Made by a program: the position numbers and the translations under genes
The notes under the pieces: model-generated
The model's input: the letters and a program-made list of their open reading frames with translations, nothing else
What the model was told of the DNA's origin: nothing
Database searches by the model: none
Source of the DNA: Powellomyces hirtus
Lineage: Eukaryota > Chytridiomycota > Chytridiomycetes > Spizellomycetales > Powellomycetaceae
Assembly (NCBI GenBank): GCA_025526995.1
Contig: JAHLKG010000003.1
Span: forward strand, 1,736,001 to 1,800,000
Length of the DNA stretch: 64,000 bases
Reading direction: 5' to 3'
Shown here: piece after piece, positions 42,648 to 63,584 of the stretch
How the letters are laid out: every line of letters starts with the position of its first letter
Numbering within the stretch: position 1 is the stretch's first letter

Positions 42648-42677
42648 CAGTCGGTGGGCAAAAATGTGGAGCCCCCC
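42648..42677 (+). repeat. Left terminal inverted repeat of the mariner element
   Basis: Pairs with 54992-55021; begins CAG after TA and ends in a C run that touches the copia target site. Confidence 0.9.
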
Positions 42678-42680
42678 CAC

Positions 42681-42937
42681 TGTTGAGATTGGACTTTTGA
42701 GATAAACCTGTCAAATCGACAGCGCTCCAAGACTCCACGTGACCCCCGCTGCGCAATGGTGCTTCATCTGACCGCGAATGCTTAGATAGCTTGCACAGCC
42801 ACCTTTCTTCTTCGTAGTGTAGCTCTCCTTCACCCATCGTTTACACATAACAACAACACAATCATTCCATTGTCATCGAGAGTGTCGAGCTAGCTTTTCT
42901 CTGTTGCACTACCCCTTAACCGGACCTACGCACAACA
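42681..42937 (+). repeat. Copia LTR 1
   Basis: 257 bp, TGTTG...CAACA. By eye it is identical to the other two LTRs. It contains a cacgtg box near 42736. Confidence 0.95.
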
Positions 42938-42951
42938 GGTTATGAGCCCTG
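42938..42951 (+). promoter_or_regulatory. Primer-binding site, half initiator tRNA-Met (copy 1)
   Basis: GGTTATGAGCCCTG directly abuts the LTR. It is the reverse complement of the anticodon arm of eukaryotic initiator tRNA-Met (CAGGG-CTCATAA-CC), with CAT at the centre, as in Drosophila copia, which uses a tRNA cleaved in the anticodon loop. Confidence 0.8.
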
Positions 42952-43018
42952 TCAGCCCGCTCAACGCCTAAAACGACAAACATCCTGCATCCTTCTTCAC
43001 GTTGTTCAATACTCAATC

Positions 43019-44692
43019 ATGCCATTGTCCCGTAGCCCCATTCGGACCAGGTCCGGAACAAACACTGCCCCTGCGCCGACGCAGGATTCTGCAGATGAGG
43101 GTCCTCACAGTGAGGACGACAAGAGTCGAGCCGCTCGACCTGACGACGAGATCGTCACCAAGGAGTATTTGGAGAAGGCGCTGTTGGAATCCCAACGCAT
43201 TATCGCCGAAATGCAGGAACGCATGCTGCTGGAATCGCAGCGACTCGCCGCCGAGTCACAAAGGGAGTCTCAGCACCTTGCGGCTGAATCCCAACGAGAG
43301 ATGATGGAAAAGATGATTTCTACCTTCGCACAAATGCAAATGCAGACGGCCGCCGCTGCAAACCCTCACGTCTTCCCGGAGGACCGCCCACACTCTCGCT
43401 CATCAGAGAATTCTTCTCCCACGTCGTCCTCAATGAATTCCGTCGCAAAGGAGCTCCTTAAACAAGTTCCCAACTTTGATGGCGATATGAGTAGCCCGCA
43501 ATTACTTCTCGAATTCATTGCAAAACTGGACGACTTTTTCGAGGTTGCATACCTTCCGCCACTTCTCGAAGCAAAAATGGCGGTAAGCAAACTCACATCT
43601 ACCGCTCACATCTGGTGGAGGACCCAGGAAAGCCAGGGGACCGCCCCTCGAACATGGAATCATCTCAAAACAACGCTACGCCTGAGATTCACACCACCAG
43701 CGTTCAGCTCGATGATCCGCGATAAACTGGATGATCTTTCGCAGACCACGTCGGTTATTGCATACAACAATGCGTTCAACAAACTCGTCATGCAGATTCC
43801 CGACATGAACAAAGGAGAAATCGAGCATCGCTATCTCAAGGGACTCAAGCGTCCTATCTACTCAGCCATCATCTCAAAGGATCTCTTGGATCTGGACGCC
43901 ATGCAGGAAGCCGCAATCCGACAGGAACAGCTTACCTCAGAACGGGGCGCTCGTGTGCCCAAAACCGAGTCTCACGTTGAAGCCCATGTGATGCATGGCA
44001 ATTCGGACGCCAACACCAATGAACACGCGCCCCGAAAATCGTGGAAAAAACAACGCCGCCGCTCAGTTCCAGGATCTCCCTGCCTCCTCTGCGAACAAAC
44101 CGGTCATTGGATGAAGGACTGCCCGAAAATGAAGGACGCGCGCGAGCTCCTTAAACAACATCAGCAAGAACCTGCTGCCGAAGCAAACCTCGTTTTGGCA
44201 ACTAACCACAGGTCCTCGCACTCAATCGCCCTTGATTCTTGCGCAACGCACCACATTATCAAGGACGCTATTCTCCTTACTGACCTGCGACCCATCCCGG
44301 CAGTCCAAATCAGCGTCGCAAACGGCGAAAACCTTACCGCTCGCGAAGCAGGCACACTCACCATCAGCAATAACGACACGGACGAAGCCATTGTCTGCGT
44401 TGACGTGCTCTACGTACCTGAAGCGAGCCGCAACTTGGTTTCCACATCGCCACTGAACCGGGACGGTTACGAAATCACATTCTCAACTAACGGTTCCTCC
44501 ATTTTAAAGAACGGCCGCGTTATCCTACCGCTCCGCCACAACGGAAACCTGCCATTTATCGATGGTTATGTTGAAACCACCGCCGCTGCTTTTGCGACCA
44601 AAGCTGCAAAACAAAGGACCGCAATGTCTATAAACTATGGCATCAACGCTTTGGGCACATTGGACAACGAGCGCTTCAAGCTGCGAATCTGA
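43019..44692 (+). CDS. Copia copy 1 Gag-protease
   Basis: 557 aa. Residues 45-110 form a Glu/Ser/Gln/Arg coiled coil with ESQR repeats. A Gag core follows (VPNFDGD, WWRTQESQG, LKTTLRLRFTPP, YLKGLKRPIYSAI). A CCHC zinc knuckle lies near residue 358 (CLLCEQTGHWMKDC) and the aspartic protease near residue 405 (LDSCATHH, matching the copia D-S-x-A-[ST] pattern). The frame stops at 44690 just where the integrase zinc region begins in another frame. Protease and integrase are therefore not in one frame. Confidence 0.93.
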   Translation: MPLSRSPIRTRSGTNTAPAPTQDSADEGPHSEDDKSRAARPDDEIVTKEYLEKALLESQRIIAEMQERMLLESQRLAAESQRESQHLAAESQREMMEKMISTFAQMQMQTAAAANPHVFPEDRPHSRSSENSSPTSSSMNSVAKELLKQVPNFDGDMSSPQLLLEFIAKLDDFFEVAYLPPLLEAKMAVSKLTSTAHIWWRTQESQGTAPRTWNHLKTTLRLRFTPPAFSSMIRDKLDDLSQTTSVIAYNNAFNKLVMQIPDMNKGEIEHRYLKGLKRPIYSAIISKDLLDLDAMQEAAIRQEQLTSERGARVPKTESHVEAHVMHGNSDANTNEHAPRKSWKKQRRRSVPGSPCLLCEQTGHWMKDCPKMKDARELLKQHQQEPAAEANLVLATNHRSSHSIALDSCATHHIIKDAILLTDLRPIPAVQISVANGENLTAREAGTLTISNNDTDEAIVCVDVLYVPEASRNLVSTSPLNRDGYEITFSTNGSSILKNGRVILPLRHNGNLPFIDGYVETTAAAFATKAAKQRTAMSINYGINALGTLDNERFKLRI

Positions 44693-47313
44693 TCTACTCT
44701 CTCGATCTGCCAAACAACGTCGAACCGGAACACGCGCTGTGCTCCGGCTGCTCCCTCGGTAAATCCACTTGGCTGCCCTTCAATGGGCAAAACTCTCGAC
44801 CTGCAACCAAACCACTTGATCGCATACACTCGGACATTCTTGACATGGGCGCCAATCTTCTCTCCCTCTCTGGCGCCCGCTACATCCTCACGTTCATTGA
44901 CGAATACACACGGTATTCCGTCATCTACCTCCTCAAGACCAAAGATCAAACCAACGATTATTGGCAAAACTATCGCGCGTACGCTGAACGCCATCTCGAC
45001 TCCAAGATCAAGGAGCTGCGCTGCGATAACGGCGGTGAATACTATCCCCTACAGGCTGAGCTGCTCGCCGATGGGATCACGTTAAACCCTACTCACCCGT
45101 ACTCCTCTCAGCACAATGGCATTGCTGAACGGTTCAATCGTACGCTCATGGACCAGGTCCGAGCGATTCTTCATGACAGCCGCGCTCCTTTCAAACTTTG
45201 GGGAGAACTCGCTATGGCCATCAACTACCTGCGTCAACGGACGCCATCAACGTCTCTCAACGGAGAGACCCCATACCAACGTTGGTTTGGGACCCCTGCC
45301 GATGTATCGAACCTCCGCACCATCTGGAGCGTGGCCTATATGCATCAACCTGTGCGCCGTCGCACACACCGCAAGCTCGGAGCTTGCGCTGTCGGACCGT
45401 TCCGACTAGTGGGATATCACCCCACTAAACAAGGCAACTATCGCCTTTACGATGCATCGACGGATTCGATCATCGACGCACGAGACGTCACAATTAACGA
45501 GGCTGATTACGTCAGCCCTGTCGCTCAGAGCGACACCACTCCTGAATATGTGGTTGAGCGCATCTTACTCTCTCGCAACGGCGAAGGGGGAGAGGAATTC
45601 CTGGTCAAGTGGCTTGGCTACGACGAACCAACATGGGAACCCCTCGACAACGTCAAGGATTCAGAGGCCCTGACGCGATTCACCGGAATCGAAGATGACG
45701 GCACACCCGTAATCGCCGAACTGCATGCCGCATGCAGCACTGACATTGACGAGCCCGCCACTTACCAGGCGGCAATCAACTTGCCGTACGCGAAAGAGTG
45801 GAAACAAGCGATCGACGCTGAACTCTCGTCTCACCGCACTAACAAGACGTGGGACACGGACACCACGCAAACACCGTCTGGCACTCACCTTGTTGATTCC
45901 AAATGGGTCTTCAAAGTCAAACGCAACGCCGATGGTTCCATCAAGAAGTTCAAAGCCCGCCTCGTCGCCCGAGGCTTCACGCAGCGTGAAGGCATTGACT
46001 TCAACGAAACATATGCGCCCGTCGTCAAGTTTAACACCTTGCGGGCGCTACTTGCGCTTGCCGCTAAGCTCGACCTTCACGTCCATCAGATGGATGTCAT
46101 CACCGCAATTCTCAACGGAGATCTCGACGTAGAAATCTGGATGCGGCTCCCAGCCGGCGTCGCTGACGACGTCGTCAAACTACGCCGTTCCCTTTACGGC
46201 CTTAAACAATCGCCGCGCCTATGGAACAAGGTTCTCGACTCTTTTCTTCAACAGCTCGGGTTCTCAGTATCAGAACTCGACACCGCGCTCTACATTAAGC
46301 GGACTGACAAAACAAGGATCCTGATTGTTGCCGTCTACGTGGATGATCTCACGATTTTCGCATCAAACCTCGATGACCTGCTCGCTCTCAAATCCGCGCT
46401 TGCCGAACGCTTCAAGATGGAGGACATGGGGGAGATCTCTTTCCTTCTCGGTCTTCAGATTACGCGCGACCGGTCAAAGCGATGCATTACCATCGGCCAA
46501 CAGAAGTACATCAAAGACATGATCGACAAGTTTAACCTTAACGGCATGCGGCCGCATCACATCCCGATGGACCCGACCTTACATCTAAACGCGCACGATG
46601 GAGCCGACGCCCTCGACGCATCAGGAACCAAGGAATATCAGTCGATCATTGGAACACTAATGTATCTGATGTTAGGGACTCGCCCTGACCTGGCCTACTC
46701 AGTTTCCCGTTTATCTCAGTTTCTGGCAGCACCGACGGCTGCACACATGACGGCCGCAAAGAAAGTTTGCGCGTACGCAAACACAACCAGTGATCTCTCT
46801 CTTGTCTTCCAAGATGGGGGAGATATTGTCGGATATTCGGATGCCGACTACGCACGCTGTACGGACACGCGTCGCTCAACCTCCGGCTATGTATTCATGC
46901 TCAACGGAGCTGCTATTTCATGGAAATCTCAACGTCAAAAATCAACGGCGCTATCCACAGCAGAAGCAGAATACATTGCACTCGCAGAATGTGCAAAGGA
47001 AGCACTCTGGATCCAGGGTCTCCTATCCGAACTGTCAGCAACGGAGCAGACAGCAGTTCTCATCTATGAGGACAATCAGGCCGCTATCAAGCTTGCCGCC
47101 AATCCGACGCATCACCAACGAACCAAACACATCGATGTCCGTTATCACTTCCTGCGAGACCTCGTCGGTAACGAGCGCATTCACCTACAGTACATTGAGT
47201 CCAAGCTCATGCTGGCTGACGCCCTGACGAAACCGCTACCTCGCCCATTACTTGATGATCTGCGACATCGAACTGGACTCCGAACGAAATCAGATTACGC
47301 CAAATCTCACTGA
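44575..47313 (+). CDS. Copia copy 1 integrase-chromodomain-RT-RNase H
   Basis: Open from 44575 (after a stop at 44572) to 47313, in the -1 frame relative to gag-protease and overlapping it by ~118 nt. In order: HHCC zinc region (LWHQRFGHIG...CSGCSLGK), DDE integrase (IHSD, RCDNGGEY, GIAERFN), a chromodomain near 45541-45690 (EYVVERIL, EFLVKWLGYDEPTWEP), reverse transcriptase (FNETYAPVVKF, LYGLKQSPRLW, YVDD at 46336) and RNase H (SDADYARCTDTRRSTSGY, TAEAEYIAL, DNQAAI). First ATG in frame is 44845, inside integrase, so translation must come by frameshift. Copy 1 has H for Q in YSSQ[H/Q]NGIAE and I for F in TA[I/F]LNGDL, at usually conserved places. Confidence 0.93.
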   Translation, partial: NHRRCFCDQSCKTKDRNVYKLWHQRFGHIGQRALQAANLIYSLDLPNNVEPEHALCSGCSLGKSTWLPFNGQNSRPATKPLDRIHSDILDMGANLLSLSGARYILTFIDEYTRYSVIYLLKTKDQTNDYWQNYRAYAERHLDSKIKELRCDNGGEYYPLQAELLADGITLNPTHPYSSQHNGIAERFNRTLMDQVRAILHDSRAPFKLWGELAMAINYLRQRTPSTSLNGETPYQRWFGTPADVSNLRTIWSVAYMHQPVRRRTHRKLGACAVGPFRLVGYHPTKQGNYRLYDASTDSIIDARDVTINEADYVSPVAQSDTTPEYVVERILLSRNGEGGEEFLVKWLGYDEPTWEPLDNVKDSEALTRFTGIEDDGTPVIAELHAACSTDIDEPATYQAAINLPYAKEWKQAIDAELSSHRTNKTWDTDTTQTPSGTHLVDSKWVFKVKRNADGSIKKFKARLVARGFTQREGIDFNETYAPVVKFNTLRALLALAAKLDLHVHQMDVITAILNGDLDVEIWMRLPAGVADDVVKLRRSLYGLKQSPRLWNKVLDSFLQQLGFSVSELDTALYIKRTDKTRILIVAVYVDDLTIFASNLDDLLALKSALAERFKMEDMGEISFLLGLQITRDRSKRCITIGQQKYIKDMIDKFNLNGMRPHHIPMDPTLHLNAHDGADALDASGTKEYQSIIGTLMYLMLGTRPDLAYSVSRLSQFLAAPTAAHMTAAKKVCAYANTTSDLSLVFQDGGDIVGYSDADYARCTDTRRSTSGYVFMLNGAAISWKSQRQKSTALSTAEAEYIALAECAKEALWIQGLLSELSATEQTAVLIYEDNQAAIKLAANPTHHQRTKHIDVRYHFLRDLVGNERIHLQYIESKLMLADALTKPLPRPLLDDLRHRTGLRTKSDYAKSH

Positions 47314-47331
47314 TATACACCCGTTATAAGT

Positions 47332-47772
47332 CTAGTTGAAATACACCCGCCGCAACCACCATCTCAATCGACGGTCCGACTTGTTGCATTTCGGGCAACG
47401 TATTTCTCCACTTCGATGCACCAGACCCCGTGAACAGCTCTCACACAGAAAACAGGGGTTTCTTTCTCCACAGGCGTGCGGCGTCCGACAGTCTTTTCTT
47501 TCGTAACACCTGTCACACCGCCTTCTCGTTACTTCCCCTTCAAAGAGGTTAATCCACTCTTTTCTGTGCAATGCGAGATATCAGTACCCTGAAACCAGCA
47601 CAACGGGGCTCCTTCCTCACCTGCAGATAACACATCTGCGTGCGGCGTCGTCAGGTGTCACCCAAATGTACTTCAAACACCGGAAGCACAGCAGGTGCCC
47701 GCAGTCCCCACAGAATTCGGCATCTCGAAAAAGACAAACGGGACACTTCGGAGCTCGACCGTTTTGTGGCAT
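47332..47772 (-). CDS. Antisense RING/zinc-finger gene inside the copia element (copy 1)
   Basis: Two minus-strand exons, 47772-47621 and 47563-47332, separated by a 57-nt intron (gtgagg...cacag), join to 127 aa. The first half is a C3HC4 RING: CPVC, then FCGDCGHLLCFRC (C-x-H-x2-C-x2-C), then CVIC completed across the splice. The second half is a further Cys-rich zinc module (CDRC, CFLCESC, CPKC) and a basic tail. The ATG is 25 bp from the 3' LTR, so transcription would start in or near the LTR reading against the element; the stop lies 19 bp beyond the pol stop. No other product of this kind is known to me in Ty1/copia. A ubiquitin-ligase or nucleic-acid-binding role is inference. Confidence 0.72.
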
Positions 47773-47796
47773 GTTTGGTCTCCAAAGTCGGGGGAG

Positions 47797-48053
47797 TGTT
47801 GAGATTGGACTTTTGAGATAAACCTGTCAAATCGACAGCGCTCCAAGACTCCACGTGACCCCCGCTGCGCAATGGTGCTTCATCTGACCGCGAATGCTTA
47901 GATAGCTTGCACAGCCACCTTTCTTCTTCGTAGTGTAGCTCTCCTTCACCCATCGTTTACACATAACAACAACACAATCATTCCATTGTCATCGAGAGTG
48001 TCGAGCTAGCTTTTCTCTGTTGCACTACCCCTTAACCGGACCTACGCACAACA
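47797..48053 (+). repeat. Copia LTR 2, shared by both copies
   Basis: 257 bp, preceded by a purine-rich tcgggggag that serves as polypurine tract for copy 1 and followed by the primer site of copy 2. Confidence 0.95.
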
Positions 48054-48067
48054 GGTTATGAGCCCTG
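48054..48067 (+). promoter_or_regulatory. Primer-binding site, half initiator tRNA-Met (copy 2)
   Basis: Same 14 bases directly after LTR 2. Confidence 0.8.
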
Positions 48068-48134
48068 TCAGCCCGCTCAACGCCTAAAACGACAAACATC
48101 CTGCATCCTTCTTCACGTTGTTCAATACTCAATC

Positions 48135-49808
48135 ATGCCATTGTCCCGTAGCCCCATTCGGACCAGGTCCGGAACAAACACTGCCCCTGCGCCGACGCAG
48201 GATTCTGCAGATGAGGGTCCTCACAGTGAGGACAACAAGAGTCGAGCCGCTCGACCTGACGACGAGATCGTCACCAAGGAGTATTTGGAGAAGGCGCTGT
48301 TGGAATCCCAACGCATTATCGCCGAAATGCAGGAACGCATGCTGCTGGAATCGCAGCGACTCGCCGCCGAGTCACAAAGGGAGTCTCAGCACCTTGCGGC
48401 TGAATCCCAACGAGAGATGATGGAAAAGATGATTTCTACCTTCGCACAAATGCAAATGCAGACGGCCGCCGCTGCAAACCCTCACGTCTTCCCGGAGGAC
48501 CGCCCACACTCTCGCTCATCAGAGAATTCTTCTCCCACGTCGTCCTCAATGAATTCCGTCGCAAAGGAGCTCCTTAAACAAGTTCCCAACTTCGATGGCG
48601 ATATGAGTAGCCCGCAATTACTTCTCGAATTCATTGCAAAACTGGACGACTTTTTCGAGGTTGCATACCTTCCGCCACTTCTCGAAGCAAAAATGGCGGT
48701 AAGCAAACTCACATCTACCGCTCACATCTGGTGGAGGACCCAGGAAAGCCAGGGGACCGCCCCTCGAACATGGAATCATTTCAAAACAACGCTACGCCTG
48801 AGATTCACACCACCAGCGTTCAGCTCGATGATCCGCGATAAACTGGATGATCTTTCGCAGACCACGTCGGTTATTGCATACAACAATGCGTTCAACAAAC
48901 TCGTCATGCAGATTCCCGACATGAACAAAGGAGAAATCGAGCATCGCTATCTCAAGGGACTCAAGCGTCCTATCTACTCAGCCATCATCTCAAAGGATCT
49001 CTTGGATCTGGACGCCATGCAGGAAGCCGCAATCCGACAGGAACAGCTTACCTCAGAACGGGGCGCTCGTGTGCCCAAAACCGAGTCTCACGTTGAAGCC
49101 CATGTGATGCATGGCAATTCGGACGCCAACACCAATGAACACGCGCCCCGAAAATCGTGGAAAAAACAACGCCGCCGCTCAGTTCCAGGATCTCCCTGCC
49201 TCCTCTGCAAACAAACCGGTCATTGGATGAAGGACTGCCCGAAAATGAAGGACGCGCGCGAGCTCCTTAAACAACATCAGCAAGAACCTGCTGCCGAAGC
49301 AAACCTCGTTTTGGCAACTAACCACAGGTCCTCGCACTCAATCGCCCTTGATTCTTGCGCAACGCACCACATTATCAAGGACGCTATTCTCCTTACTGAC
49401 CTGCGACCCATCCCGGCAGTCCAAATCAGCGTCGCAAACGGCAAAAACCTTACCGCTCGCGAAGCAGGCACACTCACCATCAGCAATAACGACACGGACG
49501 AAGCCATTGTCTGCGTTGACGTGCTCTACGTACCTGAAGCGAGCCGCAACTTGGTTTCCACATCGCCACTGAACCGGGACGGTTACGAAATCACATTCTC
49601 AACTAACGGTTCCTCCATTTTAAAGAACGGCCGCGTTATCCTACCGCTCCGCCACAACGGAAACCTGCCATTTATCGATGGTTATGTTGAAACCACCGCC
49701 GCTGCTTTTGCGACCGAAGCTGCAAAACAAAGGACCGCAATGTCTATAAACTATGGCATCAACGCTTTGGGCACATTGGACAACGAGCGCTTCAAGCTGC
49801 GAATCTGA
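48135..49808 (+). CDS. Copia copy 2 Gag-protease
   Basis: 557 aa, same domains as copy 1. Five amino-acid changes were noticed by eye, including D to N near residue 34, L to F in NH[L/F]KTT, E to K inside the zinc knuckle (CLLCKQTGHW) and E to K after the protease motif. The CCHC ligands and DSCATHH are intact. Confidence 0.93.
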   Translation: MPLSRSPIRTRSGTNTAPAPTQDSADEGPHSEDNKSRAARPDDEIVTKEYLEKALLESQRIIAEMQERMLLESQRLAAESQRESQHLAAESQREMMEKMISTFAQMQMQTAAAANPHVFPEDRPHSRSSENSSPTSSSMNSVAKELLKQVPNFDGDMSSPQLLLEFIAKLDDFFEVAYLPPLLEAKMAVSKLTSTAHIWWRTQESQGTAPRTWNHFKTTLRLRFTPPAFSSMIRDKLDDLSQTTSVIAYNNAFNKLVMQIPDMNKGEIEHRYLKGLKRPIYSAIISKDLLDLDAMQEAAIRQEQLTSERGARVPKTESHVEAHVMHGNSDANTNEHAPRKSWKKQRRRSVPGSPCLLCKQTGHWMKDCPKMKDARELLKQHQQEPAAEANLVLATNHRSSHSIALDSCATHHIIKDAILLTDLRPIPAVQISVANGKNLTAREAGTLTISNNDTDEAIVCVDVLYVPEASRNLVSTSPLNRDGYEITFSTNGSSILKNGRVILPLRHNGNLPFIDGYVETTAAAFATEAAKQRTAMSINYGINALGTLDNERFKLRI

Positions 49809-52429
49809 TCTACTCTCTCGATCTGCCAAACAACATCGAACCGGAACACGCGCTGTGCTCCGGCTGCTCCCTCGGTAAATCCACTCGGCTGCCCTTCAAT
49901 GGGCAAAACTCTCGACCTGCAACCAAACCACTTGATCGCATACACTCGGACATTCTTGACATGGGCGCCAATCTTCTCTCCCTCTCTGGCGCCCGCTACA
50001 TCCTCACGTTCATTGACGAATACACACGGTATTCCGTCATCTACCTCCTCAAGACCAAAGATCAAACCAACGATTATTGGCAAAACTATCGCGCGTACGC
50101 TGAACGCCATCTCGACTCCAAGATCAAGGAGCTGCGCTGCGATAACGGCGGTGAATACTATCCCCTACAGGCTGAGCTGCTCGCCGATGGGATCACGTTA
50201 AACCCTACTCACCCGTACTCCTCTCAGCAAAATGGCATTGCTGAACGGTTCAATCGTACGCTCATGGACCAGGTCCGAGCGATTCTTCATGACAGCCGCG
50301 CTCCTTTCAAACTTTGGGGAGAACTCGCTATGGCCGTCAACTACCTGCGTCAACGGACGCCATCAACGTCTCTCAACGGAGAGACCCCATACCAACGTTG
50401 GTTTGGGACCCCTGCCGATGTATCGAACCTCCGCACCATCTGGAGCGTGGCCTATATGCATCAACCTGTGCGCCGTCGCACACACCGCAAGCTCGGAGCT
50501 CGCGCTGTCGGACCGTTCCGACTAGTGGGATATCACCCCACTAAACAAGGCAACTATCGCCTTTACGATGCATCGACGGATTCGATCATCGACGCACGAG
50601 ACGTCACAATTAACGAGGCTGATTACGTCAGCCCTGTCGCTCAGAGCGACACCACTCCTGAATATGTGGTTGAGCGCATCTTACTCTCTCGCAACGGCGA
50701 AGGGGGAGAGGAATTCCTGGTCAAGTGGCTTGGCTACGACGAACCAACATGGGAACCCCTCGACAACGTCAAGGATTCAGAGGCCCTGACGCGATTCACC
50801 GGAATCGAAGATGACGGCACACCCGTAATCGCCGAACTGCATGCCGCATGCAGCACTGACATTGACAAGCCCGCCACTTACCAGGCGGCAATCAACTCGC
50901 CGTACGCGAAAGAGTGGAAACAAGCGATCGACGCTGAACTCTCGTCTCACCGCACTAACAAGACGTGGGACACGGACACCACGCAAACACCGTCTGGCAC
51001 TCACCTTGTTGATTCCAAATGGGTCTTCAAAGTCAAACGCAACGCCGATGGTTCCATCAAGAAGTTCAAAGCCCGCCTCGTCGCCCGAGGCTTCACGCAG
51101 CGTGAAGGCATTGACTTCAACGAAACATATGCGCCCGTCGTCAAGTTTAACACCTTGCGGGCGCTACTCGCGCTTGCCGCTAAGCTCGACCTTCACGTCC
51201 ATCAGATGGATGTCATCACCGCATTTCTCAACGGAGATCTCGACGTAGAAATCTGGATGCGGCTCCCAGCCGGCGTCGCTGACGACGTCGTCAAACTACG
51301 CCGTTCCCTTTACGGCCTTAAACAATCGCCGCGCCTATGGAACAAGGTTCTCGACTCCTTTCTTCAACAGCTCGGGTTCTCAGTATCAGAACTCGACACC
51401 GCGCTCTACATTAAGCGGACTGACAACACAAGGATCCTGATTGTTGCCGTCTACGTGGATGATCTCACGATTTTCGCATCAAACCTCGATGACCTGCTCG
51501 CTCTCAAATCCGCGCTTGCCGAACGCTTCAAGATGGAGGACATGGGGGAGATCTCTTTCCTTCTCGGTCTTCAGATTACGCGCGACCGGTCAAAGCGATG
51601 CATTACCATCGGCCAACAGAAGTACATCAAAGACATGATCGACAAGTTTAACCTTAACGGCATGCGGCCGCATCACATCCCGATGGACCCGACCTTACAT
51701 CTAAACGCGCACGATGGAGCCGACGCCCTCGACGCATCAGGAACCAAGGAATATCAGTCGATCATTGGAACACTAATGTATCTGATGTTAGGGACTCGCC
51801 CTGACCTGGCCTACTCAGTTTCCCGTTTATCTCAGTTTCTGGCAGCACCGACGGCTGCACACATGACGGCCGCAAAGAAAGTTTGCGCGTACGCAAACAC
51901 AACCAGTGATCTCTCTCTTGTCTTCCAAGATGGGGGAGATATTGTCGGATATTCGGATGCCGACTACGCACGCTGTACAGACACGCGTCGCTCAACCTCC
52001 GGCTATGTATTCATGCTCAACGGAGCTGCTATTTCATGGAAATCTCAACGTCAAAAATCAACGGCGCTATCCACAGCAGAAGCAGAATACATTGCACTCG
52101 CAGAATGTGCAAAGGAAGCACTCTGGATCCAGGGTCTCCTATCCGAACTGTCAGCAACGGAGCAGACAGCAGTTCTCATCTATGAGGACAATCAGGCCGC
52201 TATCAAGCTTGCCGCCAATCCGACGCATCACCAACGAACCAAACACATCGATGTCCGTTATCACTTCCTGCGAGACCTCGTCGGTAACGAGCGCATTCAC
52301 CTACAGTACATTGAGTCCAAGCTCATGCTGGCTGACGCCCTGACGAAACCGCTACCTCGCCCATTACTTGATGATCTGCGACATCGAACTGGACTCCGAA
52401 CGAAATCAGATTACGCCAAATCTCACTGA
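49691..52429 (+). CDS. Copia copy 2 integrase-chromodomain-RT-RNase H
   Basis: Same layout and same -1 frame relation as copy 1. This copy keeps the family-typical YSSQQNGIAERFN and TAFLNGDL, so it is closer to an active sequence. Chromodomain near 50657-50806, YVDD near 51452. Confidence 0.93.
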   Translation, partial: NHRRCFCDRSCKTKDRNVYKLWHQRFGHIGQRALQAANLIYSLDLPNNIEPEHALCSGCSLGKSTRLPFNGQNSRPATKPLDRIHSDILDMGANLLSLSGARYILTFIDEYTRYSVIYLLKTKDQTNDYWQNYRAYAERHLDSKIKELRCDNGGEYYPLQAELLADGITLNPTHPYSSQQNGIAERFNRTLMDQVRAILHDSRAPFKLWGELAMAVNYLRQRTPSTSLNGETPYQRWFGTPADVSNLRTIWSVAYMHQPVRRRTHRKLGARAVGPFRLVGYHPTKQGNYRLYDASTDSIIDARDVTINEADYVSPVAQSDTTPEYVVERILLSRNGEGGEEFLVKWLGYDEPTWEPLDNVKDSEALTRFTGIEDDGTPVIAELHAACSTDIDKPATYQAAINSPYAKEWKQAIDAELSSHRTNKTWDTDTTQTPSGTHLVDSKWVFKVKRNADGSIKKFKARLVARGFTQREGIDFNETYAPVVKFNTLRALLALAAKLDLHVHQMDVITAFLNGDLDVEIWMRLPAGVADDVVKLRRSLYGLKQSPRLWNKVLDSFLQQLGFSVSELDTALYIKRTDNTRILIVAVYVDDLTIFASNLDDLLALKSALAERFKMEDMGEISFLLGLQITRDRSKRCITIGQQKYIKDMIDKFNLNGMRPHHIPMDPTLHLNAHDGADALDASGTKEYQSIIGTLMYLMLGTRPDLAYSVSRLSQFLAAPTAAHMTAAKKVCAYANTTSDLSLVFQDGGDIVGYSDADYARCTDTRRSTSGYVFMLNGAAISWKSQRQKSTALSTAEAEYIALAECAKEALWIQGLLSELSATEQTAVLIYEDNQAAIKLAANPTHHQRTKHIDVRYHFLRDLVGNERIHLQYIESKLMLADALTKPLPRPLLDDLRHRTGLRTKSDYAKSH

Positions 52430-52447
52430 TATACACCCGTTATAAGT

Positions 52448-52888
52448 CTAGTTGAAATACACCCGCCGCAACCACCATCTCAATCGACGGTCCGACTTGT
52501 TGCATTTCGGGCAACGTATTTCTCCACTTCGATGCACCAGACCCCGTGAACAGCTCTCACACAGAAAACAGGGGTTTCTTTCTCCACAGGCGTGCGGCGT
52601 CCGACAGTCTTTTCTTTCGTAACACCTGTCACACCGCCTTCTCGTTACTTCCCCTTCAAAGAGGTTAATCCACTCTTTTCTGTGCAATGCGAGATATCAG
52701 TACCCTGAAACCAGCACAACGGGGCTCCTTCCTCACCTGCAGATAACACATCTGCGTGCGGCGTCGTCAGGTGTCACCCAAATGTACTTCAAACACCGGA
52801 AGCACAGCAGGTGCCCGCAGTCCCCACAGAATTCGGCATCTCGAAAAAGACAAACGGGACACTTCGGAGCTCGACCGTTTTGTGGCAT
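52448..52888 (-). CDS. Antisense RING/zinc-finger gene inside the copia element (copy 2)
   Basis: Exons 52888-52737 and 52679-52448, exactly 5,116 bp from copy 1 and, by eye, identical in sequence. The same splice signals and the same 127-aa product are kept. Confidence 0.72.
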
Positions 52889-52912
52889 GTTTGGTCTCCA
52901 AAGTCGGGGGAG

Positions 52913-53169
52913 TGTTGAGATTGGACTTTTGAGATAAACCTGTCAAATCGACAGCGCTCCAAGACTCCACGTGACCCCCGCTGCGCAATGGTGCTTCATC
53001 TGACCGCGAATGCTTAGATAGCTTGCACAGCCACCTTTCTTCTTCGTAGTGTAGCTCTCCTTCACCCATCGTTTACACATAACAACAACACAATCATTCC
53101 ATTGTCATCGAGAGTGTCGAGCTAGCTTTTCTCTGTTGCACTACCCCTTAACCGGACCTACGCACAACA
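52913..53169 (+). repeat. Copia LTR 3
   Basis: 257 bp, preceded by the same purine-rich tract, followed by the target duplication CCCAC and then mariner sequence. Confidence 0.95.
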
Positions 53170-53315
53170 CCCACAAAGGACACTACTTCATATCACCACT
53201 GTTTGACGGCGATGCCTTGCTTATGCTTGCTTACATTTGCTTCGGACACCCAGCTAAACAACATGTGCCCGCAATTCCGTTGCATTGAGAATCTAATACC
53301 TAGTGGATTGGACCT

Positions 53316-53760
53316 TCCGCCATGTTAACATTGTAGAACAGACCCTGGCAAGTCCAGAACTGTCTTCCTTTTGTCAATTGGACAGGTATTGACAGAGTTA
53401 TTCCATTTCGCGTGTTTTCAACGGTTTTTTAACTGTGAACGACATCTCTGCAGGCAGTTCACATCCTAGACACACCAGACCACCCTCCGCCATGTTCATA
53501 TTGTAGAACAGACCCGTGCGAGTCCAGAACTGTGTTCCTTTCATTATTTGGACCATTTTTGGAGGGAGTGGTAGGTAGAAATGCAATTTCTGCACGTTTT
53601 CGCACATCTGCTCATACCCCTTCCACCCCTGCACAGATACCACCCTCTCACTATCACCACATCGTAGCACAAGCTCTGGGGATTATGGAACTGTCTTCCT
53701 TTTGTCATTTGGACCATTTTTGAGGGAGTGGTGAGGGAAACTGGGTTGAACTGTTGGTGC
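53316..53760. repeat. Diverged tandem repeat, period about 160-170 bp
   Basis: The block ...gtagaacagaccc...gtccagaactgt.ttcctttt..tcattt.ggacc recurs three times (anchors near 53353, 53523 and 53682) within the left arm of the mariner element. Confidence 0.65.
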
Positions 53761-53787: not shown

Positions 53788-54868
53788 CTAATATCTAGTG
53801 GATCCCCCATGCACATCTATGATAGCCTGCATACGGTAAGGCATGCTCTCTATGAGCTTGTCTAAAAACTCTCGCTCGAGGGACAGCCAAGCTAAATCTA
53901 TGTGGAACTTGAGCTCGTCAACACTTGTTGGACGTGAATGGAGGGCAAAGACCTTGCGCTTGATGACAGCCCAGATGTTCTCGATGGGGTTGAGATCAGG
54001 GCTGTTGTCAGGCCACTGCATTGGCTTGATGCCTCGCTGTGCAAGCCAGACCATTGTTGCGGCAGAGGAATGGATGGGAGCACCGTCCTGCATGAAAATG
54101 AGCGGGTTTATAGGATCTGCAGCGTTTTCCGCATCATAGAAGTTCATGACGTAGCAGTTGAGATGCTCGATATAGGCAGTGGAATTGATGCCCTTGGTTT
54201 GCTTCTCCTTTGAGCCAGCAGGCTGAATAATTTTCATGATTTCGTTGAGCGGTCCAGTATTGTTTCCTACAAAACAACCCCACAACATGACTGACTTTCC
54301 CTTGCGTAAAATATGATGAATGTTGCGCTCATCATACCTTTGCCCTCGTCCCCGCAGCACCCGCTTTGCGTACCAACCTCCAATCATAATTGAAGTCTTG
54401 TCAGTCCACATAACACGTCACCCCTGATCGAGGGTCCAATTGGGGTGAGCTTGAGCATAGGCGAGTTGATTGAGACAATGGGTGGCGTTGAGAGTGGGCT
54501 TACGAGCAGCCCAGCAACTTGAATAGTTGAGATAGACAAGGAACCAGCGTTGGAGGGTTTTTTTGTTGGGGTGCTGTCCTGTGGTCAAAAATCAATGATG
54601 CACCATAGTTGTCATATCCAACCAGCGGTTATTGTTTGCAAAAGCTCTCAGTACCTCTACCTCTTGTGCAGAATTTCCAAGTTTACGGGAGCGTCCAGTC
54701 TACTTCCTGCTCGCCACGGTTTTCTCTTCCCACCAACGCTTCCAGGTCTTTTGAATGAGGCTTCTAGAAACCCCGTGCAGTGCCATTATCTTGATGATGG
54801 GTGATGCCAGCCTCCTTAAGAGCAACGATGGCAGCTCGCTTCTCGGAGGTCAAGTGCTTTCTGGACAT
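53788..54868 (-). pseudogene. Tc1/mariner transposase, inactivated
   Basis: The N-terminus MSRKHLTSEKRAAIVALKEAG (helix-turn-helix region) starts at 54868. The catalytic part runs from 54411 to 53788: MWTDKTSI, LWGCF, FMQDGAPIHSS and WPDNSPDLNPIENIWAVIKRKV, the DDE pattern of the family. It is broken by a frameshift within the first 90 nt, an in-frame TAG near 54700 and a TGA just before WTDKTSI (near 54421). The C-terminal end (YRMQAIIDVHGGSTRY) is complete. It encoded the enzyme that moved the surrounding element. Confidence 0.88.
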
Positions 54869-57416: not shown

Positions 57417-57655
57417 TGTTAGCACGTACAGACTCTGTCATTGAGTCACAACTGCGCCATTGCAGGGCATATCACGCGATCACGTGAACCCACGTGATCA
57501 ACTCCGATATAAGTAGTTTTCCTTCCATACTTAATATATTGGTGGGACTTTTCTCTTTTTCTCCAGTAGAGCGGGATTAAGTTACTTCGTTGTTCTGCTC
57601 AGTCAACTACCCTAAAGCTTCCTCAACTATCTACTCAGATACTCTCAGACCAACA
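57417..57655 (+). repeat. 5' LTR of the second copia family
   Basis: 239 bp with a GATCACGTG-aacc-CACGTGATC inverted repeat (57478-57499) and gatataagtag TATA-like box. Differs from the 3' LTR at 57442, 57469 and 57540, each a CG in the 3' LTR. Confidence 0.95.
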
Positions 57656-57669
57656 GGTTATGAGCCCTG
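57656..57669 (+). promoter_or_regulatory. Primer-binding site overlapping the polyprotein start codon
   Basis: GGTTATGAGCCCTG directly after the LTR, matching the initiator tRNA-Met anticodon arm. Its internal ATG (57660) is the first codon of the long Gag-Pol frame (MSPEMVGNE). Confidence 0.78.
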
Positions 57670-60600
57670 AAATGGTAGGCAACGAAACGAGCCCCCGGTA
57701 CACTCGTAGTATGTTAAGACGCCTAACGGGTCGGCAGACCCCAGGGTCCAATACGCTACAACGAGCCGTAGAACGTGCAGCAAAGAAAAGCGCACGAGTG
57801 CCTGGTGAATGGACATCACCAGACAATGGAGGGAAATCTGCCGGTAACAATACACTGGCAGAGCCAACGCCTTTGAGTGTCGACGCCAACGAGGGCAACG
57901 ACGCATTGGAAGGGCGTACCCGAAACGTCGACCGACGCGATGGCAAGGTCGATACCCGTCCCCTATCAAGCAGTACAGATGATCACAGAACGATCAACTA
58001 CAGTACTCCAGCGGCATTCCCAAGTGGGGAATCAGCGAACACCATGCATGTCCGCCCGCGTGAGGCGGACATGGATAGGATAGATCGGCTTGAGAATTCT
58101 CTAGCCCAACTAACGGAAATGCTCCAAATGAAATGGCGCATGGATCAGGATGTGAATATCTCGGTCAACCCTCAAGTACGTACGGCGCAACGGCGCATAC
58201 ACACACCATCACCCACTCGCAACGACGGGTTCGCTGCACCGTGGACAGAGTACAATCAGGAGATTGGAGCTCAACAGGAATACCAACGTTCTCCATTTGA
58301 ACGCCGCCCTACATCACCGACATTGAGCATACACAGCGTGACGACCAAAATCGTCGACAGTCGAGGTGCGAAGGCTTTCGTGGATGGAACGCTGAAAGAT
58401 ATTGGATCTTACAACGGGGAAGCCAATATGGTCAAACTTCGAACGTTCATCGACAAGATTGAGACAGTTGTGAAGTACGAAATGGTTCCGCCCGAGTTTC
58501 TCGTAGATTTTGTGGCTACAAAACTCACAGGATGGGCATACACTTGGTGGCAGTTGCTCTCACCAAGTAAAAGGAACGAAATTACGACGTGGCATGACTT
58601 TGAAGACGTTGATTCAGGACGAACCAACACCGGTCTTAGGTCCGCCCTTCTGGCGCGCTTCGCGCCACGAAACCACACTAGGGATTCGCTGCAGAAATTA
58701 CGGGAATTGCGTCCCAAAGGCCGCATGGATGAGTACATCACTCAGTTCAACATGCTGGCATTTTCTCTGCCAAAAACCCCGGATTACGTCCTTCAGGATT
58801 ACTTCATCAACGCGCTAACACCAGACCTTGCGGCCTTGGTTCAGGCTAATGAAGAAAACATAACTGATTTGAGCAGTTTACAGGCCGCTGCATCCAGGAT
58901 CGCCGCCAACATGGCTAAGAAACCTAGCGGGACCACAACGGATACGCGACCAGGTGCCGCACACACTGACGCCTCTAAGAAACAAAAGGGTGGCAAGAAC
59001 CACGGGGAGAAGTCAACAAACGGCAAGAAGGACAAGGAATCTACTCCATCAAACAAAGGTCAACAATCACAAAAGTCGGGTTGTTGGGCCTGTGGAGACC
59101 CTAAACACCGAACACAGGAGTGCGAAGTGTTAAAGAAGTTCAAATCCGAGATGGAGAAGAACAAGACAAAGCAGTCGTCTGATGGTGCTGTTAGCACAAA
59201 TGCTGTGGAAGCATTACACGTCTGGGTCCGCCAAGAACAACCGTATGAAGCCCTCATCGACTCTGGCGCTACGGACCACATGACACCTCACAAAGCGACC
59301 TTGGATCACTCAACCGTGTACAGTGATGTCAGAGCTGTTATGCTTGCTGACAAAACATCACTACCCTCTACAGTTCGAGGTACGGTACGAGTAGAAGTTA
59401 ACGACTATCCGAATCCGCTCGAGTTGGGCGGAGTCCTGCATGTGCCAGGATTACGACAAGATCTCGTATCGGTAGCGAAATGCAACGATCAAGGCGTTGA
59501 CGTGCTCTTCAAGTCGAATGGAGACGTCATTTTCACGCGAGACGGCAAAGATATCGCCAAAGGCGTACGCCGCAACAACGCGTATTACCTGCAAGGTACG
59601 CTGCTGTCTGAAAGTCTGTGGACGGATTCAGAAGCATGCACTGTCGAAGTCTCTCCTACACTCGCTCATGCTCATCTTGGACACGTTGGCAAACACGTCC
59701 TGGAGAAGATGGCATCGGTTACGAACAGTTGGTCCGTAGTGGGGGATCCAAGCGACTTCAAAGATTGTGAAGCCTGCGTGTTAGGAAAAGCCGCTCGTCT
59801 TCCATTCTCCCTTGGTAACGTTGAAGCCAGGGAGATCTGTGAGCTGATTCATTCAGACCTACAGGGACCATTTCGCATCCCTGGTTACGAAGGATCACGC
59901 TATTCGCTGGAGTTCATTGAACACACATCCAGATACGTGACTGTTTTCCCTATTCCTTCAAAGGATTCAGCAGTCATACTCAAAAAGTTTCTCATCTACA
60001 AGGCTTGGATTGAGAAACAGACTGACCGACAAATCAAGATCCTACGTACGGATTGAGGCACCGAATACTTTGGCGAGGTTCTAGAGTACCTATTGGAAAA
60101 TGGTATCACTCATCAAAAGTCCGCGGCCTATTCGAGTCAGCAAAACGGGATTGCCGAACGATGGCATCGCACGGCGCTGGACAGGGTCCACGCCACCTTC
60201 GCGGATACGAAACTACCCCGAAGATTCTGGCCCGCTCTACTGATAGCGGCTGGATACATCTATTCCCTTACGTACAACCGCATCAACAAGAAGACGCTGC
60301 ATGAAATACTGTTTGGCCAGCGTCCTGATGTCGCCCATCTTAGGCATATCGGTTGCGTGGCGTATCCCGTTCTAACAAGCAAAGGATGGAATAAAATGGG
60401 GAATCGAGCAAAGAAGGCTTTCTTGGTGGGCTATGCTCAACCCTCAGGTACCAAGGGGTATCTGGTTTGGGATCCTATCACTGACAAGGTCAAAGTGTCA
60501 CGAGACGTGATCTTCAAAGAAGACTTGGGACTCGAACCCAAATATCAACAGGATCCAGCACATCTTGATCTTCTAGATGAGGAGAGTCAGGAGGATGACG

Positions 60601-62520
60601 TCGAATACGCCGTGGAGGCAATTATCGACGAGCGCCGCAGTAAGGCGCACACAAAAGAGTACTTGGTTAAGTGGGAGGGATATCAAGAACCTACGTGGGA
60701 GTCCCAACTTTCATTACTCGATACTACAGCATTGGATGACTGGGAGAATCGAGTAGCCGCGTACAATGTTGGCACACGACGAAATGACCCCATCGCTGCA
60801 TACGCCGCCCGCGCGCGGACTCAAGCAACGATCAACGAAGACGCCATGACATGGAAGCAAGCAATGAAAACACCTCAGAAGGAGGAATTTCTCAAGGCTG
60901 CACGCATTGAGTACCAATCCCTGGTCGACAACGGTACATGGGAGCTCACCAAGCGTCCACGTAACAAGCGCGTGATCGGAACAACATGGGTCTTTCGAAC
61001 GAAGGTCAATCCCGATGGCACTTTTAACAAGTTCAAAGCCAGAGCAGTGGCTCAAGGCTTCTCTCAACAACCCGGTCACGACTTTGGTGATACATATTCA
61101 CCTACGCTACCATTCACAGCGCTACGCCTCTTCTTGGCGTATTGTGTCCAGCACGGGCTGGACATCCACAGTATGGACGCTGTCACCGCCTTCCTTAACA
61201 GCGATATTGATAAGGATATCTATATTGAGCAGTTTGAGGGATTCGAAGATCCGGATCACCCCAAAGGCGATTGGGTCCTGAAGCTACTGAAAGCTCTATA
61301 CGGCCTGAAGCAATCACCTCTTCGTTGGTATGAGACCTTGAAGACTGCACTGTTGAAGCTCGGCTACGAAGCGGTTTCTGTTATCTTTTTCAAGTACGCG
61401 ACAGACGACCGTACACCTCCGTCGAACGAAAATTTGGTCCTTATTCTCGTCTTCGTCGACGACCTGCTGATTGCAGCGAAGGATTCGGAGATTCTGGCGA
61501 ACAGCAAAACGGAGCTACATTCGAAGTTCAAGTTTACGGAACAAGGTCGCGTAACCAGTCACCTTGGTCTCGTCTACAAATATGACTTCGACTCTCCTGT
61601 TCGTACCCTCGAAATCTCAAATGTCAAGTACATCGACGACGCTCTTGCACAATTTGGCATGAGCGACTGCCATCCTGTCTCCACCCCGTACGCCGTGTCA
61701 GCGCGTAACCAACAACCGGAGGATTCGACCCCATTCACGAATCTGAAAATGTATCAGGAAGCAGTGGAGGTCCTCACTTGGGCCTCCATCACATGACGAT
61801 GGGACATCGCCACTGCCGTCGGTTACGTTGCGCGCCGCGTGGCCGCACCTACCAACTCCGACTGGAACAACGTTAAGCGCATTTTCCGCTATTAGAAGGG
61901 TACCCGCAATTATGCCCTCAAGTTTACATCCAAACGAAATGATCCGCGTGGCTTACGCGTATTCACGGATGCGGATTATGCAGGAGAACTCACCGACCGG
62001 ACGTCCACTACAGGTATTTTGGCCCTTTACAATGGGTTCCCTGTTCTGTGGAAAAGCAGCAAGCAGAAGTGCACCGCCCAAAGTACGACTGAGCGGAGTA
62101 TATAGCTGCAAGTACCGGCCACAACGAAGCCAAATGGCTACGCCAACTCTTGGCGGAAGTTTTGGGACCTCAACCGGATTACAAATCTCGACCGGTCCCT
62201 CTCCATGTCGATAATCAGAGCGCCGGGGCCTTGATTCAGTCTAAGGCTATCAACCAACGCACCAAACACATTGACGTTCGGTACCACGCTATACGCGATT
62301 CGTTCGCGAAGCAAATTATCGAAATCATCGACACCAATACGGACGATCAACTGGCGGACATCTTTACGAAGCCTTTTCCCACTGTGAAACATAAGGACAC
62401 TGTCCTGAGGATTACGAATGGGACTCATATATTTGATGAGAGAATACGCAATGAGGGCGCGTCTACGGAAGCACACCGAGCTCAAGTGTTACTTGCTGAA
62501 TGTCAGGAGAATTACTCACA
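57660..62520 (+). pseudogene. Gag-Pol polyprotein of the second copia family, inactivated
   Basis: One frame with Gag (DIGSYNGEANMVKLRTFIDK), CCHC knuckle (CWACGDPKHRTQEC), protease (LIDSGATDHM), integrase (CEACVLGKAARLPF, IHSDLQGPF, SSQQNGIAERWHR), chromodomain near 60601-60755 (VEYAVEAI, EYLVKWEGYQEPTWES), RT (LYGLKQSPLRWYE, FVDD) and RNase H (FTDADYAGELTDRTST). Broken by TGA at 60054 (RTD*GTEY), TGA at 61794, TAG at 61893 and a one-base loss near 62091 (TTE-AEY). The RNase H end is then read in another frame (HVDNQSAGALIQ, RTKHIDVRYH, LADIFTKPF). The 3' limit of pol is approximate. Confidence 0.92.
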
Positions 62521-62540
62521 ACACTGGCTTACCTTGGCAT

Positions 62541-63164
62541 CTACACCACAATTGTGGAACCCGAAACAATGCCCCCCAAGGAGGATGGGCCTGCCCCTCC
62601 TCCACCATCCTCATCGCTTGAGGGTGAGCGTCGGCTTGAAGAACCCGATGGTCCCTCCAACTCTTCGGCTGTCCCCTCCTCCTCCTCCTCTTCCTCATCA
62701 TTATATGGAGCTTCCCGCTCCAGGATGTCCCACATCCTCTTCACCTCCGCTACAGACTTCTTGTCCGCAGCCCTCTTCTTTGTCTGGGCCGTATCCTTGC
62801 CCTTCCCAACTGCCAGCTTCCGGCTCCGCCGGTCCTCTAGTATGGACCTCAGTCCATCAAGCGTCCCGGTCGCCCGTGCGCGACCAAGAGGCGTACCAGA
62901 CCTCGCCCGGTCTTTCACCCGGTCTTTTGCCTGCTCGATGTGACGTTCAAGGACCCCTTGACGGTCCTTGCGGTGGAACTGTCGGGCATGCGCTGCTGAC
63001 ATCGTTCGAATCTCCGCTCGGGACAACCCCGCAGCGGGTGCGCCTCCCTGTGGCGCAGAGGGCACCACTGACGATGGCACAGCAGGAGCTGTGGTCGTCG
63101 CAGGAGCGGTTACCGGCGGTCCCGTCTTTCTCGCCGTCTGCTTCGCTTTGCCCGAACCTGACAA
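62541..63164 (-). CDS. Antisense open frame in the second copia family
   Basis: A 207-codon minus-strand frame between RNase H and the 3' LTR. It has no in-frame ATG at its start; a short splice from an ATG near 63204 (donor gtaagc, branch-like ctaac, acceptor tgtcag, 34-nt intron) would keep the phase but is unusually small. The product is Ala/Pro/Thr-rich, then strongly basic and helical (LERHIEQAKDRVKDRARSG, RSILEDRRSRKLAVGKGKD), then KSVAEVKRMWDILEREAPYNDE followed by an acidic run of eight Glu. No zinc motif and no known family. The position equals that of the RING gene in the tandem family. Confidence 0.45.
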   Translation of the reverse strand: MSGSGKAKQTARKTGPPVTAPATTTAPAVPSSVVPSAPQGGAPAAGLSRAEIRTMSAAHARQFHRKDRQGVLERHIEQAKDRVKDRARSGTPLGRARATGTLDGLRSILEDRRSRKLAVGKGKDTAQTKKRAADKKSVAEVKRMWDILEREAPYNDEEEEEEEGTAEELEGPSGSSSRRSPSSDEDGGGGAGPSSLGGIVSGSTIVV

Positions 63165-63345
63165 CTACACCGGCACATAGTTAGAGCTTACGCCTCATTT
63201 GCGCGGATCTCATAGACGTACCCTAGCCATTCCTCGTAATCTCAAAGTGTAATAAATGGGGGTGTTTGGGGGTGTGCGCGGGGCTGTGTAGTAAAAGTAG
63301 ATAGAGCAACTCTCTCACTGCCAGACTGACAGGTCTGAGTGGGGG

Positions 63346-63584
63346 TGTTAGCACGTACAGACTCTGTCATCGAGTCACAACTGCGCCATTGCAGGGCGTA
63401 TCACGCGATCACGTGAACCCACGTGATCAACTCCGATATAAGTAGTTTTCCTTCCATACTTAATATATCGGTGGGACTTTTCTCTTTTTCTCCAGTAGAG
63501 CGGGATTAAGTTACTTCGTTGTTCTGCTCAGTCAACTACCCTAAAGCTTCCTCAACTATCTACTCAGATACTCTCAGACCAACA
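63346..63584 (+). repeat. 3' LTR of the second copia family
   Basis: 239 bp; preceded by the purine-rich gagtgggggtg. Confidence 0.95.

Follow-up and report, generated by a model that had tools for sequence, protein, structure and literature searches.

A conserved antisense RING-finger gene with an apparent intron in Ty1/copia retrotransposons of Powellomyces hirtus

The antisense gene and its host element

The window analysed here, a 64,000-nucleotide (nt) stretch of the Powellomyces hirtus genome, contains two tandem Ty1/copia retrotransposon units on the plus strand (family A, 42681..53169), each of which carries an additional gene, hereafter gene A, on the opposite strand. The original prediction had proposed an antisense two-exon RING frame in both units, and both indeed hold it: splicing in silico yields the same 127 amino acids from 47332-47772 and from 52448-52888 (minus strand), across a 57-nt GT-AG intron found in each. 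In copy 1, exon 1 (47621..47772), which encodes a C3HC4 RING, is followed by the phase 2 intron (47564..47620) and by exon 2 (47332..47563), which encodes a second Cys-rich module and a basic Trp-rich tail; the corresponding parts of copy 2 lie at 52737..52888, 52680..52736 and 52448..52679. Gene A occupies the space between pol and the 3' long terminal repeat (LTR): its stop codon lies 18 nt beyond the pol stop, and its ATG is 24 nt from the LTR edge, which is upstream of it in the antisense direction.

The first module, RING1, shows the C3HC4 spacing of eight ligands (C-x2-C-x10-C-x-H-x2-C-x2-C-x14-C-x2-C). The intron had been thought to interrupt the RING itself; in fact, exon 1 holds all eight ligands, and the splice completes Arg51, just past the last of them, before leading into the second module as predicted. 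Left unspliced, gene A RNA is predicted to encode a protein that ends after Arg51. The proposed profile search gave a divided answer, because exon 1 of the window matches RING profiles by E-value but its best score, 23.3 bits, stays below the curated cut-off of 30. A hydrophobic residue that contacts the E2 and a linchpin residue are the criteria for a RING E3 ubiquitin ligase, and both (V/I12 and R51) are present in 29 of the 29 gene A copies with a full-length frame. The solved structures nearest to RING1, by sequence and alignment comparison with the PDB, are also ubiquitin ligases, with an RNF4-type protein as the best sequence match. Thus, RING1 keeps the residues expected of an E2-binding ligase and, by sequence, looks like an E3 RING. 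Module 2 appears to have no clear family: only 4 of 14 members match zf-C3HC4_3, weakly (best E 0.025), the PDB matches are weak and include uS14-type zinc ribbons (best E 0.04), and the structure model of exon 2 has a predicted local distance difference test score (pLDDT) of 51. Sequence and alignment searches of the protein database returned no gene A homologue at E<=1 outside the P. hirtus genome.

The host element has the marks of Ty1/copia: an integrase ahead of an RVT_2-type reverse transcriptase, TG..CA LTRs and a 5-bp target duplication (CCCAC, 42676-42680 and 53170-53174) at the outer flanks of the tandem pair. Its three LTRs (42681..42937, 47797..48053 and 52913..53169, plus strand; 257 nt, TGTTG..CAACA) are identical, and the middle one belongs to both units, in the order LTR-internal-LTR-internal-LTR. 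The two units differ at 18 of 5116 nt, with no difference in the gene A region. On the plus strand, each contains a gag open reading frame (ORF; 43019..44692 and 48135-49808) that has a gag domain, ends in a Pol_BBD domain and shows a weak CCHC knuckle match in a domain search, and a pol ORF (44845..47313 and 49961-52429) with integrase, SH3-like, Chromo and RVT_2 domains.

Conservation and selection across the family

Relatives of these two copies were sought across the P. hirtus assembly (29.3 Mb, 60 contigs). Two marker families encoded in it, chitin synthase and the flagellar ribbon protein RIB43A, indicate a zoosporic fungus. Family pol 3' ends were taken at 72% identity or more; 150 of 542 candidates were scored, and 39 such ends are among the matches listed. 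Antisense exon 2 lies within 400 nt of 37 of these 39 ends, against none in the sense orientation, and 24 of the 37 have identical pol-to-exon-2 spacing. Conversely, 37 of the 44 exon-2 places adjoin a listed family pol 3' end. In all, 42 gene A copies were extracted, after removal of duplicate fetches and exclusion of loci in which one exon was wholly or mostly missing (L026, L048, L052, L053, L055, L056). A 384-nt frame is found in 29 of the 42 (28 distinct), the other 13 being dropped for frameshift, truncation or distance. Over these 29 copies, stops in the gene frame number 4 for exon 1 and 9 for exon 2, whereas the other five frames contain 7-49 and 42-118: the frame of gene A is not a chance ORF. 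Frameshifts and truncations are confined to single copies or to one duplicated pair, and the tail, NxxDxxLRxWxRxVYF, is almost invariant among the copies.

The splice sites are retained as well. All 41 intron-bearing copies keep GT-AG, and the donors seen are restricted to GTGAGG, GTAAGG, GTAGGG, GTGAAG, GTGATG and GTGAGT. The last nine intron bases changed once in 28 copies, a slowness that 10 of the 432 nine-base windows in the gene match; for four intron sites drawn at random, the probability of no change at any of them is 0.06. Within the family, then, splice-site conservation is suggestive, not overwhelming. A second subfamily of the gene, 50% identical in protein, adds to it, with an intron at the same place and in the same phase. 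Together with the 37 of 39 pol ends, these counts bear out the expectation that gene A belongs to the element and is conserved over the family along with its cysteines and splice sites.

The remaining copy of the 42, L054:3872-4180, is an intronless relative of the RING gene. The intron is precisely absent, and the copy is frameshifted and lies amid transposon fragments; it is a possible trace of spliced RNA copied back. We set it aside as proof of splicing, since no LTR was found beside it and its upstream DNA is nearly single-copy, and keep it as a lead.

How strongly is the protein constrained? In a maximum-likelihood branch model, omega (dN/dS, the ratio of nonsynonymous to synonymous change) is 1.03 on internal and 0.68 on terminal branches, and a single omega of 0.83 compared with 1 gives a 2 delta lnL of 4.9. 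When changes are stratified into CpG transitions, other transitions and transversions, the all-codon values become 0.96 (internal) and 0.60 (terminal), with an internal value of 0.74 on the pol tree. By the same method, the pol 3' piece (28 copies, 10 having been dropped for poor or partial alignment) gives 0.21 and 0.65. Gene A is therefore less conserved than pol on internal branches (0.74-0.96 against 0.21); a second antisense gene, gene B, described below, gives 0.45. Synonymous divergence in the gene and in pol disagrees between the same copies (0.233 against 0.136 for L037, for instance), so that parts of the element may have had different histories through recombination.

The zinc ligands behave differently from the rest. 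Within the family, ligand codons show 6 nonsynonymous or stop changes against 28.7 in class-matched expectation, and 5 changes at codon positions 1 and 2 against 31.7 for random codons; losses amount to 6 of 464 ligand cells, 4 of them in L047_1 and 2 in L043. Several results nevertheless weigh against a maintained gene. Non-ligand codons have an internal dN/dS of 0.79-1.00 where pol has 0.21 by the same method, and 10 of the 29 copies bear stops. The ligand codons also change little at third positions (0.5 changes per site against 1.2), and their own nonsynonymous to synonymous ratio on internal branches is not low unless the decayed copy L047_1 is omitted. An out-of-frame triplet control for these codons gives p=0.07. 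By segment, internal non-ligand omega is 0.75 (codons 1-33), 1.37 (34-66), 1.46 (67-95) and 0.45 (96-127), none significant alone.

Because ligand codons within the family are also slow at synonymous sites, the weight for constraint rests on the comparison between subfamilies. When the window gene is compared with subfamily 2, none of the 16 ligand codons shows a difference at its first or second position but 10 show one at the third; in the remaining 103 codons, the three positions differ 53, 35 and 67 times, respectively. At non-ligand codons, then, dN/dS lies near 1, a value that the original prediction had named as refuting it, while the ligands are fixed as amino acids between subfamilies. 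Judged from these comparisons, gene A encodes a zinc scaffold that is kept on a predicted surface that changes fast.

Origin of the gene, a second antisense gene and neighbouring features

The closest copia family seen, a third family whose RNase H is 53% identical to that of family A, lacks the gene: no RING exon 2 was found within 2 kb of any of its 111 places among the matches listed. In the one copy read, the pol stop appears to abut the LTR edge, as placed by a polypurine tract and TGTTG. The second RING subfamily, for its part, is located outside recognisable elements, and one intact copy, L049, is paired in divergent orientation with a dynein light chain gene; L051 nearly duplicates this stretch, which puts the pair at two places. 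These positions suggest that gene A was captured from a chromosomal gene; movement from element to chromosome is possible.

The third family (L087) also shows a distinctive distribution. Its listed places fall on 21 contigs, mostly as one compact cluster per contig (two on C7), and its 1368-amino-acid frames are often open; we regard these clusters as candidate centromeres.

In fact, gene A is not alone. A family B copia element (57417..63584, plus strand; AATCC duplication; LTRs 57417-57655 and 63346-63584), in which pol is interrupted in this copy, carries on its minus strand gene B, which is unrelated to gene A. Gene B has a predicted first exon of three codons (63222..63230, ATG GCT AGG), a predicted 57-nt intron with a CTAAC branch-like site (63165..63221) and a second exon encoding a charged protein (62541..63164) that has no match in Pfam. 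At least 124 matches are listed in the genome, fragments included, and most are without internal stops. Every one of the 26 loci fetched, which represent 24 distinct places with the window's among them, retains the ATG, GT and AG, and the intron measures 56-61 nt by eye in some copies. Over 24 distinct copies the antisense frame has an internal omega of 0.45 (z -4.2) and a single stop; the sense frame that shares its wobble positions has a like ratio but 57 stops, and another sense frame, nearly open (4 stops), has a ratio of 1.57. Gene B thus seems to be under purifying selection and is apparently spliced. Of the three copia families seen in the genome, two have an antisense gene that bears splice signals.

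Families A and B have further features in common. Directly after the 5' LTR, both carry GGTTATGAGCCC (window 42938-42949 and 57656-57667), which we take to resemble the anticodon arm of the initiator tRNA. In both, pol also encodes a Chromo domain (PF00385), which follows integrase and precedes reverse transcriptase (window 44845-47313 and 60093-61796). Chromodomains are usually described from Ty3/gypsy elements. A narrow literature term search for a chromodomain in copia gave no match, and the chromodomain discussion in the part of a fungal LTR survey available to us concerns Gypsy (PMC3248453). Between the two elements lies a DDE_3 transposase fragment (53788-54411, minus strand) that adjoins three 71-nt repeats at 53328-53729.

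Possible roles and comparison with known antisense genes

To explain these results we propose, at what we judge an even chance, that gene A is an accessory gene of its element, acting through a spliced antisense RNA started in the LTR and a RING ligase protein. The RNA would start in the 3' LTR, given the nearness of the ATG to its edge; splicing at the conserved sites and translation would then yield a small zinc protein with two modules. RING1 would recruit a ubiquitin-loaded E2 through its E2-contact and linchpin residues, and module 2 with the basic Trp-rich tail would bind a partner or nucleic acid. Most likely the protein would direct ubiquitylation at a host factor involved in restriction or silencing, or at proteins of the element itself, which would leave only the metal scaffold fixed while the surface changes fast. 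The gene was probably gained from a chromosomal two-exon gene, after the split from the closest copia relative seen. The original prediction had reasoned that an intron can survive only if the gene is antisense to the genomic RNA, and that of gene A fits replication via the sense RNA only: it would survive because packaging and copying are restricted to the gag-pol strand.

More tentatively, the copia elements of this fungus may repeatedly take up host-like, intron-bearing antisense accessory genes, one for a RING ligase and one for a charged protein. They would serve a counter-defence like that of HBZ, the spliced antisense gene of human T-cell leukaemia virus type 1 (HTLV-1), and the RING protein would degrade a factor that silences or restricts the element, in an arms race that holds nothing constant but the zinc scaffold. 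HBZ is a retroviral bZIP protein and, unlike gene A, has no RING.

Other readings have to be weighed against a ligase. The Cys modules and basic tail could form a zinc-binding adaptor for element RNA, cDNA or chromatin, and both the near-invariance of the tail and the uS14-type zinc ribbons among the weak module 2 matches would suit it; we hold this unlikely, given that RING1's nearest solved relatives are ubiquitin ligases, that the E2-contact and linchpin residues are kept throughout and that gag itself already shows a CCHC knuckle match, albeit a weak one. Less probable still is that gene A is a passenger, a host gene that was captured, brings the element no benefit and is decaying. The omega of about 1 outside the ligands, the stop-bearing copies and the weak within-codon signal at ligands inside the family all speak for such decay, yet the ligands are fixed between subfamilies although third positions have changed, the splice sites are retained, the gene is kept at nearly all listed pol ends, and frameshifts and truncations are scattered over single copies or one duplicated pair. 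Finally, the antisense RNA itself might pair with gag-pol RNA and so hold copy number down, the protein being irrelevant. It would overlap the sense RNA at the latter's 3' end, which would permit this, and the antisense RNAs of Ty1 are a precedent. A role of this kind is discussed for plant antisense genes in the part of PMC7264820 seen. Amino-acid-level constraint at the zinc ligands is not predicted by an RNA function, and we consider it very improbable.

The original prediction had noted reports of antisense extra genes in some plant LTR elements, and the accessible parts of PMC7264820 and PMC11963269 describe them. Boty, an element of Botrytis and Sclerotinia, joins the plant elements among the established cases of antisense ORFs located between pol and the 3' LTR (PMC7264820, in part); the plant ORFs are described there as similar in conservation to other retroelement proteins. 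The available text of PMC7264820 contains neither "RING" nor "intron", and that of PMC11963269 neither "RING finger" nor "intron"; "antisense" and "RING" are absent from the text of the fungal LTR survey PMC3248453. A literature search for RING plus retroelement returned nothing relevant, and none of the literature searched (subscription papers lay outside it) describes an antisense gene of a copia element that encodes a RING or has an intron. The layout is thus already known, and a RING-coding, intron-bearing version in a copia element is new.

The closest likenesses are partial. RNF4-type ligases share the spacing and E2-contact residues of RING1, but the match is limited to the short RING region of a protein that has no full-length relative in the database searched. 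The plant aORF-3R genes (of Grande, as gene23, RIRE2 and Retand) are likewise antisense additional ORFs of LTR elements, but of plant elements, Ty3/gypsy in the case of Retand, and they code for TRP28 or other proteins (PMC11963269, in part). The brtn gene of Boty is, like gene A, an antisense extra gene of a fungal LTR element (PMC7264820, in part), in a gypsy-type rather than a copia host (BcGypsy1, PMC8365987, in part); the likeness is one of description. The antisense gene of HTLV-1 is an accessory gene with a 3' LTR promoter (PMC7264820, in part), as we propose for gene A. For the plant and Boty genes, the same portion of PMC7264820 names neither a clear protein similarity nor a known origin. 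Gene A has a recognisable RING, a conserved, capture-compatible intron, subfamily relatives outside elements and a relative family without the gene, which opens its origin and function to testing. Should the protein prove to be a ligase, the identity of its target would give a clue to the way in which a flagellate fungus holds its retroelements in check. We envision gene A as a fungal counterpart of the antisense accessory genes of plant retroelements and of some retroviruses.
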